Below are positions 1 through 6,885 of a stretch of 54,172 nt of DNA, in pieces (within the stretch, counting starts at the first letter, position 1; each line of letters starts with the position of its first letter). The position numbers were made by a program, and so were the translations under genes. The stretch covers positions 123,691-177,862 of the forward strand of contig CAMYJU010000018.1 of assembly GCA_947258795.1 (NCBI GenBank), written 5' to 3'. The notes below the pieces were generated by a model. It worked only from the letters and a program-made list of their open reading frames with translations. It made no database searches and had not been told where the DNA came from. Source of the DNA: an uncultured Gammaproteobacteria bacterium. Lineage in GTDB: Bacteria > Pseudomonadota > Gammaproteobacteria > DRJJ01.

Positions 1-1150
1 ACGGAAGGAAATCCTTTAAACCCAGCAATGCAACCAGTATTCCGATAGAAGGCAGATAGTTTCGATGTTCAAAAGCAATCTCCAGTGGCAAGATGGTAGA
101 TTCGATTGAATGGCTTATAAAGAAGAATATAACTCCAAATGAAAACAGAGGTGCACGCCTATGTGATTTCAAGGCCAATAGAATCAATGCCAATATTAGT
201 GTTAATGCAACAATAGTGGATATAGGTTCAAACAGGGATCTGGAGATACTGATGTCATCATGATAAAAACCCAGATATTGTTGTATCGGTGCCAGTATGA
301 TGAATATATAAAAAATCAGGACACGGAATTCGGTTAAAATACGTTCTATCAGTGTAAATTCCCGATGCTGGAAAGTGGGCATATAGTTTGAATTAAATAT
401 TACGATAAAAACAATCGTGCCAAGCAGAATAAGAAATAGACTTAAATATGTCAGGCTTCTTGAAATTTTCCCATCGAGGCTTTTAGGAAACTCAAATTTG
501 AATACACTGTATTCAGTAATAATAATCAGTGGTAGTAATAATATCCCGTTTTCCTTACTGAGTAGCGCAAGAGGCAGCATGATCAATATGGCAATACCTA
601 TATGAATACTGCCTGAGAGATTTTGCAGGGTTTGTCTGTATCTACCTTTGCTATAACAAAGTAAACCAGCTAATGTGAAAAAAGTGGATAACTCCGTCAT
701 GCGTTGTACGGTATATAAAACCGTGCTGACTTGTAATGGATGCAATAGCCACATTGCGGTGACAAGCAGGGCGAACAGAGGATTGAATTTGTTATCCGGG
801 TAGATTTTTTGAAGCAGTACTATCATTAGCCAGAATAGTATGCATGCATTTAATAAGTGGATAATCAGGTTGGTAAGTTTCCAGTAAAATATATCTTCAC
901 CTGCTGTCATTGCATTCAGGATAAAGCTGGATATGGCTATGGGGCGCCCTAATATTCCGCTGGAACTGGAAAAGGCGAGTTCAAATAGGCCTGTACCTTC
1001 GGTGACAGACTCAAGGAGTGGGTTTAACTGTGGCAAGTCATCAAGTAATAATGGGCCATGTAGTCCTGGATAGTATAGACCAATGCAGCAGCCAATTATC
1101 CCTATAAATAATAGACCGTAAGTTATTTCAGATGGCTCTGGTCTGGTCAT
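1..1150 (-). CDS. GT-C type membrane glycosyltransferase-like protein, partial (C-terminus beyond window edge)
   Basis: An open frame runs without a stop from ATG 1150 to the window edge, giving about 383 residues. It is strongly hydrophobic, with roughly nine or ten membrane segments. After the first segment comes YPGLHGPLLLDDLPQL, and further on LGRPIA, NLIIHLL, QVSTVLYTVQRM, LLSKENG and EHRNYLPS. The same landmarks recur in the same order in the upstream neighbour (LLDDYPNL, LGRPVS, NLMIHLL, QVSTVLYVIQRM, IFSKENG, EHRNYLAS), so the two are tandem paralogues. An acidic pair in the first extracytoplasmic loop is typical of GT-C glycosyltransferases, the fold of protein O-mannosyl- and oligosaccharyl-transferases. 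Only 8 nt separate it from the upstream stop, so co-transcription is likely. Position behind pilA suggests pilin or surface O-glycosylation (inference). Base composition is AT-rich. Confidence 0.7.
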   Translation of the reverse strand, partial: MTRPEPSEITYGLLFIGIIGCCIGLYYPGLHGPLLLDDLPQLNPLLESVTEGTGLFELAFSSSSGILGRPIAISSFILNAMTAGEDIFYWKLTNLIIHLLNACILFWLMIVLLQKIYPDNKFNPLFALLVTAMWLLHPLQVSTVLYTVQRMTELSTFFTLAGLLCYSKGRYRQTLQNLSGSIHIGIAILIMLPLALLSKENGILLLPLIIITEYSVFKFEFPKSLDGKISRSLTYLSLFLILLGTIVFIVIFNSNYMPTFQHREFTLIERILTEFRVLIFYIFIILAPIQQYLGFYHDDISISRSLFEPISTIVALTLILALILLALKSHRRAPLFSFGVIFFFISHSIESTILPLEIAFEHRNYLPSIGILVALLGLKDFLP

Positions 1151-1158
1151 TATAGGAT

Positions 1159-3105
1159 TTACTCGGAGGTAGTATGGCCATTCCTTGGTGACCATAATCC
1201 TCGATTCTTCAGTTCATTAAAGGTTTTCTCATACCTTGAAATCATTCTGGAATAATCCTGGCGACGTTGTTGATCATTATTTTTGACAATATGCAGTGTT
1301 CTCCATGCCTCATCGTATTTTCCAAGCATGAAGGAATACTTGATCTTCAGTAAGCCAGCTTCAAGATTGCTGGGTATAAGTTTCATTGAGCGCTCAAGTA
1401 TATCCAGTGCAGTATGCTTGTATTTATCCAAGCCTGAATCAAACATAAACTGGGCCATATGTACATTGGAAACCCATAATTTTCTATTGCTAACAGGTGC
1501 TGTCTGGTTTTTGCTCCAGTCTTCGAATATGTCGATGAATCTAGGAAGATCAAGGCTTTCACATTTTCCTTCACGTGTATATTCTCTGAGAAGAATAAGA
1601 CCGTCTGTAGGCGGAAAAGTGCCCGGTGAGTTCAATGCGTCTCTGTAGTTTTGATATTCGGAGTCCTCAATTGGAGAGTTGGATCCACATATGGCCAAAA
1701 AACGGAATATATGTGCTTCGGGTTTGACGCGTGGTTTTAGCTTCATTACATGATCAATATGATACAACGCGTTTTGAAAATCACCTGTCTGAATGTACAT
1801 CACGGCTATTGTGCCATGGGCACGGAAGGACTTCGGGTGCCAATATATGTCATTCAATATAATACTTATAGGTGACTTCCATACCTGAACCCGCTGATAT
1901 GTAGCGGTGACATGGGCGAGGGGGAACAAGATCAGAAAAACGCCCGCCAGGAGATGGTTATTGTATCGACGCCATAGGGTATATAGACCATAGGCAAGCA
2001 TCAGGTAGATGCTGAAACTGGCCAAGTAGTTTCTATGCTCGAAATACAGTTCCAATGCAAATATGCTTGATTCCATTGCATGGGCGCACAGAAAAAATGC
2101 AGGCGCGAAAAAATATATGTTCCATTTTTTATTTCGATGAATCCAGGCCATAACAACAGCCAGAGTCCATGCCAGTATTGATAGTAGCGTGGTGACTGGC
2201 GTTAATAATCCAGAGGATTTGTTAAAATCATCGTGCAAAATGCCTAGACTGGTCGAATCAGGTATCAGTAAAGAGCGCAGATATATAATCAGGATTCGTG
2301 CTTCACTATACAGTCTCTCAATCAGGGTGAAGTCTCTGTTCTGATACGGGGCGGTTACAAATTCTGGTCTGCCAGCCAGGTATAGTAGTAGTAGTAGAGC
2401 CGGGATCACTAAAGTGATAGTAAATGTGAACAAAATAAAACGTCGTTGCCAGGGAATGTCAGGGCGTCTGAAAAAATACAGCTCTATTACCCCTGCAAGC
2501 AAGGGTAGCAGAGCTCCATTTTCCTTGCTAAAGATGGCCAGTGGCAGCCAGATAACAAACACGGCCAGGATTAACGATATACTATGTATTGGTTTTTTCT
2601 CGAGAGATTGTCTGCCTATGGTATAGGTGATAAGACCGGCCAGGACAAATAAGGTGGACAACTGCGCCATACGCTGGATTACATATAAAACCGTGCTGAC
2701 CTGCATCGGCGTAATTAACCACATGGTCATGACCCATAATGCGATGGTATATCGTTGGTCGCGCAAGCGTGTTTCCAGCAGCAGACGGTAACTGAGCCAG
2801 AAAATCAGAACACCGCATAGCAGGTGTATCATCAGATTGGTGTATTTGTAATTCCAAGGGTCATTACCATTTAACAGGTAATTCAGGACCAGGGTCAGCA
2901 TTGATACCGGACGACCCAGCTTGCCGGATTCATTATCGAATGCTATATCCCGCCAGTCTGCCATGCCGCTATCCAGGGCATTTAATGGCTGCAGATTAGG
3001 ATAATCATCAAGCAAGAAGCCGCCGTTCAAGCCTGGCCAATATAGAAAGACTGTGAAAAATAGAAGAAGAACGAATAAGGAATGTTTGAGAAATAAGCGC
3101 AGCAT
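1159..3105 (-). CDS. GT-C type membrane glycosyltransferase-like protein with C-terminal TPR region
   Basis: A 648-residue protein starting at ATG 3105. The N-terminal two thirds is a multi-pass membrane region beginning with a hydrophobic helix and then YWPGLNGGFLLDDYPNL, which has the acidic pair expected of a GT-C catalytic loop. Residues from about 420 on are soluble and helical, with TPR-like units (for example AHGTIAVMYIQTGDFQNALYHID and NLEAGLLKIKYSFMLGKYDEAW). This resembles TPR-bearing O-mannosyltransferase-like proteins (TMTC type) and the O-glycosylases encoded beside pilin genes. The donor and acceptor cannot be read from sequence. It lies 74 nt behind pilA on the same strand, past a strong hairpin terminator, so it is probably expressed by read-through or its own weak promoter. 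AT-rich compared with the rest of the window. Confidence 0.65.
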   Translation of the reverse strand: MLRLFLKHSLFVLLLFFTVFLYWPGLNGGFLLDDYPNLQPLNALDSGMADWRDIAFDNESGKLGRPVSMLTLVLNYLLNGNDPWNYKYTNLMIHLLCGVLIFWLSYRLLLETRLRDQRYTIALWVMTMWLITPMQVSTVLYVIQRMAQLSTLFVLAGLITYTIGRQSLEKKPIHSISLILAVFVIWLPLAIFSKENGALLPLLAGVIELYFFRRPDIPWQRRFILFTFTITLVIPALLLLLYLAGRPEFVTAPYQNRDFTLIERLYSEARILIIYLRSLLIPDSTSLGILHDDFNKSSGLLTPVTTLLSILAWTLAVVMAWIHRNKKWNIYFFAPAFFLCAHAMESSIFALELYFEHRNYLASFSIYLMLAYGLYTLWRRYNNHLLAGVFLILFPLAHVTATYQRVQVWKSPISIILNDIYWHPKSFRAHGTIAVMYIQTGDFQNALYHIDHVMKLKPRVKPEAHIFRFLAICGSNSPIEDSEYQNYRDALNSPGTFPPTDGLILLREYTREGKCESLDLPRFIDIFEDWSKNQTAPVSNRKLWVSNVHMAQFMFDSGLDKYKHTALDILERSMKLIPSNLEAGLLKIKYSFMLGKYDEAWRTLHIVKNNDQQRRQDYSRMISRYEKTFNELKNRGLWSPRNGHTTSE

Positions 3106-3119
3106 TTCAGTATTGTTAA

Positions 3120-3158
3120 AATTAAACCCCGGTATTCTTTTAATACCGGGGTTTAATT
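3120..3158 (-). terminator. Strong hairpin terminator behind pilA
   Basis: A perfect 17-bp inverted repeat: AATTAAACCCCGGTATT at 3120-3136 and its reverse complement at 3142-3158, with a 5-nt loop. On the minus strand the second arm ends in TTTAATTTTAAC, giving a U-rich tail. It sits 22 nt beyond the pilA stop and just before the glycosyltransferase-like gene, so it should end most pilA transcripts and leave a stable 3' end on an abundant mRNA. Confidence 0.85.
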
Positions 3159-3866: not shown

Positions 3867-5201
3867 TCATGAGATATCATATTTTTTTAGCCGGTAGCGC
3901 AGCGCCCGGTAACTAATGCCCAGTAGCTTTGCGGCAGCGGTCTTGTTATAGCGCGATTTTTCCAGGGCATTGATGATCATCTGGCGTTCGCGGTTATCCA
4001 GCGCATGGTCCAGATCACTACTTTCTGCTTCAGGTGGTTCATGTTCTGCTTCCGGCAGGTGTAAATCATTCACACCAATTGTCTTACCTTCGCACAGTGC
4101 CAGCGCCCGCTCCAGGATATTCTCCAGTTCACGCACGTTCCCTGAGAAGGGATAGTTTTGCAGTGCCTTCATGGCGTCATCGCTTAGGTGAAAAGCGGTT
4201 TCATTATTTGTACTGGCCTGCAGACGATTCAGTATGTGCTCAACCAGTTGGGGTATATCTTCAGTGCGTTCGCGTAACGGTGGTACAGTGATGTTGATTA
4301 CATTGATGCGATAGAAAAGATCTTGCCGAAATTCGTCATTTTTTACCTTGGCTGCAAGATCCTTGTGTGTGGCACTGAGTATGCGCACATCAATCGGGAT
4401 TTCTTCGTGACCGCCGATTGGCCTTATTGCCTTTTCCTGTATCGCGCGTAGTAACTTAACCTGCATGTGCATCGGCAGTTCCGCGATTTCATCCAGGAAC
4501 AGGGTGCCGCCCTGGGCTGCCTGAAACAGCCCCTGTTTGTCACTGACCGCGCCGGTGAAGCTACCTTTTATATGGCCGAAAAATTCGAATTCGCTTTCCA
4601 TCAGTTCCGTCGGTATCGCGCCACAGTTGACCGGTACAAATGCTTTTTCTGCCCTGGGCCCCTTCTGGTGTATCAATTGTGCAACCAGTTCCTTGCCAGT
4701 ACCTGATTCTCCGCTGATATAGACTGGCGCCTGGCTGCGGGCCAGCTTGGCAATGTTGGAGCGTACCTGGCGCATCACTTCTGATTCACCCAGGAGTTGA
4801 TTACGGGACCGGCGGTCTATGACGGCACCGGGTGCCGCCAGCTTCATTGCGCTATTGACCAGGTTTCGCAGCATCTCCAGGTCTACCGGTTTGGATACAA
4901 AATCGAACGCGCCAGCCTTCAATGCCTGTACCGCCGCCTCCATACTTCCGTAGGCTGTAATGACGGCAACGGGTAGTTTCGGGCAATGAGTCTGAATGTA
5001 CTCAACCAGTTCAATACCGTCACCATCCGGCAGGCGCATATCGGTGAGACAAAGATCAAATTGCTTATCTTTCAGTAGTTGGCGTGCTTCGGCGATATCG
5101 GCAGCAGCATCGGTATCAATATCCATTCTGCCTAGTGTCAGTTCCAGCAGTTCACGGATATCCGGTTCATCATCTATGATTAATGCGCGATGAAGGCCCA
5201 T
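3867..5201 (-). CDS. pilR: Type IV pilus two-component response regulator PilR
   Basis: A 444-residue NtrC-family activator. Receiver domain residues 1 to about 120 has the acidic pair D10-D11, the phospho-acceptor Asp54 in LTDMRLPDG and Lys104 in FVSKPVD. The AAA+ sigma-54 interaction domain has Walker A GESGTGKE (164-171) and GSFTGA (213-218), a common variant of the GAFTGA loop that contacts sigma-54. A Fis-type helix-turn-helix ends the protein (LLGISYRALRYRLKKY). It follows pilS with a 2-nt gap, so sensor and regulator are translationally coupled. Its target pilA is immediately downstream with a matching sigma-54 promoter. Confidence 0.95.
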   Translation of the reverse strand: MGLHRALIIDDEPDIRELLELTLGRMDIDTDAAADIAEARQLLKDKQFDLCLTDMRLPDGDGIELVEYIQTHCPKLPVAVITAYGSMEAAVQALKAGAFDFVSKPVDLEMLRNLVNSAMKLAAPGAVIDRRSRNQLLGESEVMRQVRSNIAKLARSQAPVYISGESGTGKELVAQLIHQKGPRAEKAFVPVNCGAIPTELMESEFEFFGHIKGSFTGAVSDKQGLFQAAQGGTLFLDEIAELPMHMQVKLLRAIQEKAIRPIGGHEEIPIDVRILSATHKDLAAKVKNDEFRQDLFYRINVINITVPPLRERTEDIPQLVEHILNRLQASTNNETAFHLSDDAMKALQNYPFSGNVRELENILERALALCEGKTIGVNDLHLPEAEHEPPEAESSDLDHALDNRERQMIINALEKSRYNKTAAAKLLGISYRALRYRLKKYDIS

Positions 5202-5203
5202 GA

Positions 5204-6826
5204 CTATTCCTGTTCTATTTCAATTGCTGCATGAAATAATATGCGAAAACGACTGCCACCGGAAGGTGTCGGTTTATATTCGATGTGCGCCTGGTTAAGT
5301 TCGCACAGTTCGCGGCATATGTATAGTCCCAGGCCTGTGCCACTTGCCTGGGATGTGACAAAGGGTTCGAAGATCTCTTCAATGCGACTGGTTTCAATAC
5401 CCGGGCCATTGTCGATAATATCCAGATAGGGCTGTCTGGAATCGAGATCAATACCTCCATTCAGGGATAGTCTGAATTCCTCAGGTGTATCCGCCAAACC
5501 ATGTTCCAATGCATTTCGGCACAGGTTCCAGAGCAGTTGGTGCAAGTGCTTGGGGTCAAATGAGATTTTGGTCTCGACCGGTTCGATTTGTATGCTGTAT
5601 TGCTGTTCCGAAAGCTTTTCGATTTGTGCAAATTCTTCCATGAACTCATGAAGCCAGTCGGCCAACAGTATTTTCTTCGGGACAGACTTGTCACGGCGCG
5701 ATAGTTGCAAAACGCTCTCGATAATACTGTTCATGCGTGTGGAATGATTGCGTATGATCTCGATCATGCGAGAATCGCCCTTGTCCAGATGCTCTGACTC
5801 TGCTAACAGTTGTGCGGCATGACTGATTGCGCCCAGTGGATTCCGGATTTCATGAGCAATACCTGCGGTGACGCGCCCCAGTGAGGCGAGCTTCATCTGT
5901 TGTGCACGCTGAGCTATTTCGCTGCTGGATTCTATATAGATTATTGTGCCGGTGGAATGTTCTTCACCGATTTGCTCAAAGCGTATCAGTAGTTCCTGGG
6001 GGGTTACCTGCTGCTGCAAGCGATAACGGGTGTGGGTCGGGTGTTTTTTCCATTGATCCAGCAGCCTGTTTAGTTCAGGAAGATAGCTTGCCAGTCCCTG
6101 GTATGGTTGGATTTCGGGCTTACCCAGTAGTTTCCGTGCGGATGGATTGATCAGGCGTACCTGCATATTATTGTCAACGACAATAACACCGGATTGCACA
6201 TTTCGGACAACATAGGCATTCAGCTGTTCAAGATTGGCCAGGTCAAGACTGCGCTGGCGAGCGAGTGCTTCACTTTCCCTGGCTTGCCTGGCGAGGATAT
6301 GGGCGAGCAGGGCGGTGGCAAAAAACAGGGTGCCCAGTATGCCGGCCTGTGTGTAGGCAGTTGTGAAAAAGCTGTCACTTAGGTGGGCATATATCTGTTC
6401 GCCTAGTACCGCTACGCTTGCAAATGCCGCATGCAGGAAGCCCAGTCGGCCAGTCAATACAATTCCTGCCCCTGCTATTACCGCAACCAGTAGTAGCCCG
6501 AGGCCTGATGTTATACCGCCGCTGGCGTGCATCAGTAGCGTTAAGGCAATAATGTCAGTAAATACCTGGATATGTGCCTGGGTTTCGAGTCCCGGTTGTC
6601 GCCTGTGGATGGTAATGCTGAACAGGATGCTGATTCCGAAATAGGTCAGGCTGGTGGCAAAAAACAGCTGCGCATCGTGTTGTCCCAAGATGGATGGTAT
6701 CGGCCCGAGTTGAAACAGACTCAGGAACAAGCCCGATAAAATCAGTCGGTACAGGTTCAGTAGCCAAAGAGGCAGCCAGGTATTTCGGTCTCCCTGGAAA
6801 ATGGAATTCGATTCAGTGGCGGGCAT
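5204..6826 (-). CDS. pilS: Type IV pilus sensor histidine kinase PilS
   Basis: A 540-residue membrane histidine kinase. I chose ATG 6826, which has GGGA 7 nt upstream, over the TTG 18 nt earlier. About six hydrophobic segments fill residues 20-180, as in Pseudomonas PilS. A PAS-like region follows (YVVRNVQSGVIVVD), then the H-box GIAHEIRNPLGA with His325, the N-box LCRNALEHG with Asn438, and the ATP-binding motifs DNGPGI (472-477) and GTGLGLY (496-502). In Pseudomonas PilS senses inner-membrane pilin levels and controls PilR phosphorylation; this follows from family knowledge and gene pairing. Confidence 0.93.
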   Translation of the reverse strand: MPATESNSIFQGDRNTWLPLWLLNLYRLILSGLFLSLFQLGPIPSILGQHDAQLFFATSLTYFGISILFSITIHRRQPGLETQAHIQVFTDIIALTLLMHASGGITSGLGLLLVAVIAGAGIVLTGRLGFLHAAFASVAVLGEQIYAHLSDSFFTTAYTQAGILGTLFFATALLAHILARQARESEALARQRSLDLANLEQLNAYVVRNVQSGVIVVDNNMQVRLINPSARKLLGKPEIQPYQGLASYLPELNRLLDQWKKHPTHTRYRLQQQVTPQELLIRFEQIGEEHSTGTIIYIESSSEIAQRAQQMKLASLGRVTAGIAHEIRNPLGAISHAAQLLAESEHLDKGDSRMIEIIRNHSTRMNSIIESVLQLSRRDKSVPKKILLADWLHEFMEEFAQIEKLSEQQYSIQIEPVETKISFDPKHLHQLLWNLCRNALEHGLADTPEEFRLSLNGGIDLDSRQPYLDIIDNGPGIETSRIEEIFEPFVTSQASGTGLGLYICRELCELNQAHIEYKPTPSGGSRFRILFHAAIEIEQE

Positions 6827-6885
6827 AGTGTTCCCGTGTAGCAACCTACATCAAGTTTACCTATAAAATGGCTACTATCAGTATA

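Follow-up and report, generated by a model that had tools for sequence, protein, structure and literature searches.

A likely pilin-glycosylation locus with tandem TMTC-like GT-C proteins behind pilA in an uncultured gammaproteobacterium

The window, i.e. the whole stretch of 54,172 nucleotides that was analysed, corresponds to positions 123691-177862 of contig C18 of the source genome. The locus at its beginning is arranged on one strand in the order pilS-pilR-pilA-A-B-GT2-pilB-pilC-pilD, where A and B designate two paralogous membrane protein genes and GT2 a glycosyltransferase gene (Table 1). The genes GT2, pilB, pilC and pilD are located outside the window: beyond its first base follow a gap of 48 N, the tail of B, the GT2 gene (301 aa), pilB, pilC, pilD, coaE and zapD, and beyond zapD SecA is encoded on the other strand. 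The genes pilR and pilS encode the pilin regulators, and the product of pilA is, as judged from its domain matches, a genuine type IV pilin and the presumed acceptor substrate of A and B. The earlier description of two same-strand paralogues directly behind pilA was confirmed, since both are minus-strand open reading frames with pilA immediately upstream. For gene B an alternative start exists at the ATG at position 1150 instead of 1195, which avoids the overlap with A.

Table 1. Features of the pilA locus. Positions refer to the window unless prefixed with L004.
Feature	Position	Strand	Basis or remark
pilS	5204-6844	-	upstream of pilA; sequence, order conserved in related loci
pilR	3867-5201	-	upstream of pilA; sequence, order conserved in related loci
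pilA, major type IV pilin, 146 aa	3180..3620	-	Pfam Pilin 1.4e-19, N_methyl 1.1e-10; pilS-pilR upstream
17-bp perfect hairpin, terminator-/attenuator-like, weak T tract	3120..3158	-	between pilA and A
Gene A, TMTC-like GT-C transferase (predicted), 648 aa	1159..3105	-	11 predicted TM helices and C-terminal TPR domain
D33-D34 of A, GT-C acidic pair, first periplasmic loop (predicted)	3004..3009	-	alignments
E356-H-R-N-Y360 of A, signature motif, last periplasmic loop (predicted)	2026..2040	-	alignments
Gene B, TMTC-like GT-C paralogue (predicted), membrane part	2..1195	-	runs off window start
Assembly gap, 48 N	L004:13644-13691		after membrane part of B
B tail, TPR-like, 215 aa	L004:12993-13640	direction as B

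The similarity of A and B is far beyond chance (BLASTP: 38% identity and 58% positives over 372 aa, E 9e-59), and the landmarks LLDD, LGRP, QVSTVLY, SKENG and EHRNYL, which had been noticed at the outset, are present in both proteins. In contrast, the impression that only one paralogue carries a TPR tail turned out to be an edge effect, because the tail of B is situated past the 48-N gap. This tail has the same direction as B, is found at the right position and is similar to that of A, with which it aligns by eye (SEIWSS / VQVWKS); B and the tail were therefore taken as one gene across the unread gap, so that both paralogues would have TPR tails.

The structure of A was predicted with AlphaFold using an alignment of 90 sequences, and the resulting model had a pLDDT of 94.6 and a pTM of 0.94. 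When the whole chain was searched with Foldseek, TPR superhelices filled the list owing to the dominance of the tail, and the GT-C fold emerged in the second alignment pass. In this pass the best PDB alignment was obtained with yeast STT3 (Z 19.6; 324 residues, 4.3 Å), and further GT-C structures were AglB (Z 18.4), Pmt1/2 (18.2), Pmt4 (17.9), ArnT (16.6), PglB (16.0) and AftD (15.4). The top 32 PDB alignments were all with GT-C-fold enzymes or with GPI-transamidase subunit U, a GT-C relative. According to the model, A thus has the GT-C fold; structure prediction had been set as a check on the earlier GT-C proposal, and its outcome bears the proposal out, with STT3, Pmt1/2, Pmt4 and ArnT among the best matches. 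The membrane domain fold is common to A and to Pmt1/2, Pmt4 and STT3/PglB/ArnT (Z 15-19.6), but sequence identity to A amounts to 8-12%, and A carries a TPR tail where Pmt, STT3 and PglB have other domains. Pmt has a MIR domain, and STT3 and PglB have periplasmic domains. The 11 transmembrane helices are consistent with the helices of the model and with the family-averaged hydropathy. Since the short loops are positively charged, the loop with the DD pair and the TPR tail of A were placed on the periplasmic side, which they are predicted to face. On the level of sequence, A itself as well as a full-length and a membrane-only profile yielded TPR or chance matches only against Pfam, NCBIfam and PDB sequences: the membrane domain resembled no model of either domain collection and no PDB chain, and the A/B family had no sequence-level match to named GT-C families in these three collections.

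The residues expected for catalysis are strongly conserved. D33 and D34 were both invariant in alignments of 23 and 46 sequences, while in 90 sequences D33 was invariant and D34 reached at least 90%; the acidic pair in the first loop that the earlier note had pointed out is hence conserved, its position in the loop being derived from the model and hydropathy. All five residues of EHRNY were invariant in the 23 sequences, and in the 90 sequences E, H, R and Y were invariant and N was present in at least 90%. Besides these two motifs, R65-P66, K87, N90, H94, P133, Q144-R145, K194-E195 and D292 were invariant or nearly so in both the 23 and the 90 sequences.

This pattern fits the map of TMTC proteins (PMC7801869), with DD plus RP, R, KE, D and E..R..Y in the extracytoplasmic loops EL1, EL2, EL3, EL4 and EL5, respectively. 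TMTC1-4 are eukaryotic O-mannosyltransferases of the GT-C/PMT clan, although their enzymatic activity was still undemonstrated according to a 2021 analysis, and full-length prokaryotic TMTC-like proteins exist which are not yet well characterised (PMC7801869). In the human proteins, DD and SHKSYRP in EL1, RxD in EL2, KE in EL3, DW in EL4 and ERxxY in EL5 were assigned to metal, phosphate and sugar binding (PMC7801869). The likeness of A to TMTC1-4 (GT105) comprises the 11 transmembrane helices followed by TPRs on the extracytoplasmic side, as well as DD and RP in EL1, KE in EL3, an acidic residue in EL4 and E..R..Y in EL5. However, the RxD of EL2 is not kept in A, in which R145 stays without a D at +2; SHKSYRP is replaced by xxxxGRP in the A/B family, the terminal RP alone being kept; and EHRNY, which corresponds to ERxxY in its position, differs from it in spacing. 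Moreover, the A/B family is bacterial and pilin-linked, and none of 46 membrane domains matched the Pfam TMTC model DUF1736 at E 0.1.

The intergenic region of 74 nt between pilA and A has a predicted folding energy of -28.3 kcal/mol (z -5.3), and none of 200 shuffled sequences folded as well. A perfect stem of at least 8 bp was found in 54 of 76 intergenic regions between pilA and a GT-C gene (1.9 for shuffled sequences), and a terminator-like combination of stem and T tract in 40 of the 76 (shuffled: 0.15). The hairpin at the present locus was not listed by a simple terminator scan. A terminator between the pilin gene and the accessory gene is a common device (PMC11841053).

Of 143 genomes sampled within the class or at a closer relationship, 43 contained a homologue of the A/B family, and at least 572 family loci were confirmed in species-representative genomes; among the matches listed are Lysobacter, Rhodanobacter, Marinobacter, Acinetobacter, Undibacterium, Gallionella and Methylomonas. 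In the recurrent neighbourhood, one to three GT-C genes come after pilA, and a GT2 gene comes after these. Of the 115 testable blocks, which come from many families, 84 had a pilin gene as their immediate upstream neighbour on the same strand (25/36, 50/68 and 9/11 in three partially overlapping samples, as the genome collections share some species), and 31 had none at this position. For generic TMTC-like relatives, defined by a profile score under 130, the corresponding count was 0/8 (phylum sample). The linkage to pilA is therefore a conserved one, in support of the earlier reading. In several genomes without the family, pilB directly follows pilA.

Several deviating arrangements were observed. 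In Woeseiaceae (L111, L125, L127, L159), the transferase gene is inserted between zapD and the coaE-pilD-pilC-pilB end on the opposite strand and not behind pilA. Genome G138 lacks the family; there pilA is followed by the gene of a sulfatase-type protein and next by that of a Wzy_C protein (L178:1740-5620), an arrangement that may represent another type of modification locus. In genome G068, the gene directly behind pilA (L179:3835-5682) codes for a TMTC-like protein that is highly divergent (profile score 57) and perhaps represents a separate recruitment of a similar enzyme. A third TMTC-like protein of the source genome (L005:3-1757, contig C3, minus strand) is divergent and is encoded next to a polyketide synthase cluster; it matches the pilin-linked family weakly (34% over residues 59-239), and no pilin gene is located nearby. 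On contig C6 (L183:5626-7800, minus strand) a lipoprotein-like protein of 724 aa is encoded, which has a pilin-like C-terminus (23 residues not shown, then ...CSGEMESKYLPAACRQ) and lacks a prepilin cleavage motif; similarly long frames were matched by the pilA search in G002, G037, G044, G055 and G082.

With regard to the pilins, PilA and A share 65% identity each with their counterparts in the sister species, compared with 86% for PilR, 82% for GT2, 86% for PilB and 90% for PilC. Such divergence is as expected if pilA and A change together under outside pressure, which might be exerted by phages, for example. In Pseudomonas aeruginosa, pilin glycosylation shields pili from phages, according to work cited in PMC11841053. 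Pilins linked to the family were slightly richer in serine (10.3% vs 7.7%, p 4e-4; 88 vs 21 pilins, uncorrected for kinship).

The GT2 protein downstream of B matched the Pfam GT2 model (9.6e-31), dolichol-P-mannose synthase 5mlz (4.1e-15), ArnC (3.7e-14) and GtrB (3.3e-9), and hydrophobic stretches are visible at its C-terminus. Dolichol-P-mannose synthase, ArnC and GtrB load polyprenyl phosphate with sugar. By its sequence, GT2 is classified as a polyprenyl-P-sugar synthase-like protein (DPM/GtrB/ArnC), and this partner suggests a polyprenyl-P-sugar donor for A and B. A GT2 gene directly followed the transferase block in 66 of 114 cases in the first two samples, whereas the phylum sample showed this in only 2 of 12. 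The locus contains no dedicated flippase, and the one GtrA-family protein is encoded on another contig. In Acinetobacter rongchengensis, pilA-GTC-GT2 is directly followed by the gene of an ABC transporter (L135:10740-12485), which might serve as the missing flippase there.

The predicted GT-C fold and the occurrence of the family behind the pilin gene in many bacteria imply that A and B very probably decorate pili with sugars. The designation as a likely pilin-glycosylation locus, already proposed in the earlier note, is supported by the pilA linkage and the common GT2, while sugar transfer itself is predicted. A and B are probably pilin-dedicated integral-membrane GT-C O-glycosyltransferases of an undescribed family that use a polyprenyl-P-sugar donor. 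In the model that we infer for enzyme activity, substrate, sugar, flipping and the roles of TPR domain and hairpin, GT2 would attach a sugar to polyprenyl phosphate on the cytoplasmic side of the membrane, a flippase would turn the polyprenyl-P-sugar to the periplasm, and A and B would transfer the sugar via D33/D34 to Ser/Thr of PilA with participation of putative phosphate-binding residues such as K194 and R358 of A. The periplasmic C-terminal TPR domain would help to hold the pilin, and the modified pilin would be assembled by PilB/PilC. The hairpin behind pilA may keep transferase expression far below the pilin level. Weighing against this reading are the 31 blocks that lack a directly upstream pilin gene, the irregular presence of GT2, the lack of sequence-level matches to named GT-C families and of a dedicated flippase in the locus, and the serine statistic being uncorrected for kinship.

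For the division of labour between A and B, different sugars or different sites had been suggested. Tandem blocks of two to three transferases have one GT2 each, which makes a shared donor, with different sites or an extension of the chain, more likely than different sugars; moreover, the GT2 of the locus is the sole close homologue of such kind in the source genome. Thus, different sites are favoured and different sugars are less likely; in the most likely scenario, the two proteins share one donor and either have separate target sites or work one after the other. As a sub-question within the pilin-glycosylation reading, and compatible with it, A may initiate and B extend the pilin glycan, or the two may add different sugars, so that one would be the true protein glycosyltransferase; this option is regarded as tentative. 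In the family tree A and B are placed in distinct clades, both of them supported, which marks them as old paralogues that may differ in acceptor, and the locus of the sister species (L035) contains A and lacks B, both of which speak for such an option. The single GT2 per locus and the one close GT2 in the genome count against two donors but remain compatible with an extension by B. A single ancient first/second duplication behind all tandem arrays was rejected, since 10 changes of the first/second label would be required on the tree; the arrays therefore arose repeatedly.

Alternatively, the GT-C enzymes A and B might have a different surface component as their target (O-antigen, exopolysaccharide or periplasmic proteins in general) and be located behind pilA by operon history. 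The combination of GT2 and GT-C follows the logic of the GtrA/GtrB/Gtr systems of periplasmic glucosylation (PMC11127046). Furthermore, some family members occur alone or in glycan-type clusters without pilA, and ArnT, which acts on lipid A, is among the fold matches of A. However, this alternative is unlikely in view of the pilA linkage, which holds in many families but not in generic TMTC-like relatives, and members away from pilA still adjoin pil genes in some lineages, e.g. at zapD/coaE-pilD in Woeseiaceae. In another reading, A and B would be pilus-assembly accessories of the TfpY kind with TPRs that chaperone PilA and a relic or inactive GT-C domain; in its favour, pilus biogenesis involves TPR proteins such as PilF. 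Although TfpX/Y/Z, encoded behind pilA, do aid assembly and leave the pilin unmodified (PMC11841053), this role is very improbable for A and B, as the putative catalytic and phosphate-binding residues are (near-)invariant across 90 sequences, the locus is coupled to a GT2 that resembles donor synthases, and TfpY-like proteins have 3 transmembrane helices vs 11 in the A/B family.

Pilin glycosylation by A and B can also be compared with described systems. TfpW, the D-Araf transferase of the group IV pilin of Pseudomonas aeruginosa, is a GT-C enzyme encoded beside pilA (PMC11841053, PMC5836110). Compared by description alone, it resembles A and B in fold class and gene position, and the pilin is its substrate; however, it adds D-arabinofuranose from a donor of a different route, whereas the A/B locus has a DPM/GtrB/ArnC-like GT2 and a TPR domain. 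TfpO, TfpM and PglS are encoded beside their own pilin target (PMC12645811), as A and B are beside pilA, but these enzymes and PglL are of the WaaL/Wzy_C type, while A and B have the predicted GT-C fold. TfpO uses the C-terminal Ser of the pilin (PMC12645811), whereas 9 of 88 pilins linked to the A/B family end in Ser. A classification of A and B as WaaL/Wzy_C-type pilin oligosaccharyltransferases was rejected, as no Wzy_C domain match was obtained; the source genome has two Wzy_C proteins, both on other contigs. In the open-access literature, to which the search was confined, no account of the A/B family as a pilA-linked TPR glycosyltransferase was found. The comparison points to A and B as a coherent unnamed TMTC-like family within the already known kind of pilin accessory glycosyltransferases.

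It is reasonably likely that the family represents a widespread pilin-dedicated class of bacterial TMTC relatives in gamma- and betaproteobacteria, with a private polyprenyl-P-sugar synthase, TPRs that recognise the pilin and tandem copies for multi-site or stepwise modification. Few pilin-specific enzymes are known, namely TfpO, TfpM and PglS of the WaaL type and TfpW of the GT-C type. If the proposed role is true, pilin glycosylation would be extended to many environmental lineages, TMTC-type enzymes that carry TPR domains would become accessible in a simple bacterial model, and the family might provide new protein-glycosylation tools.
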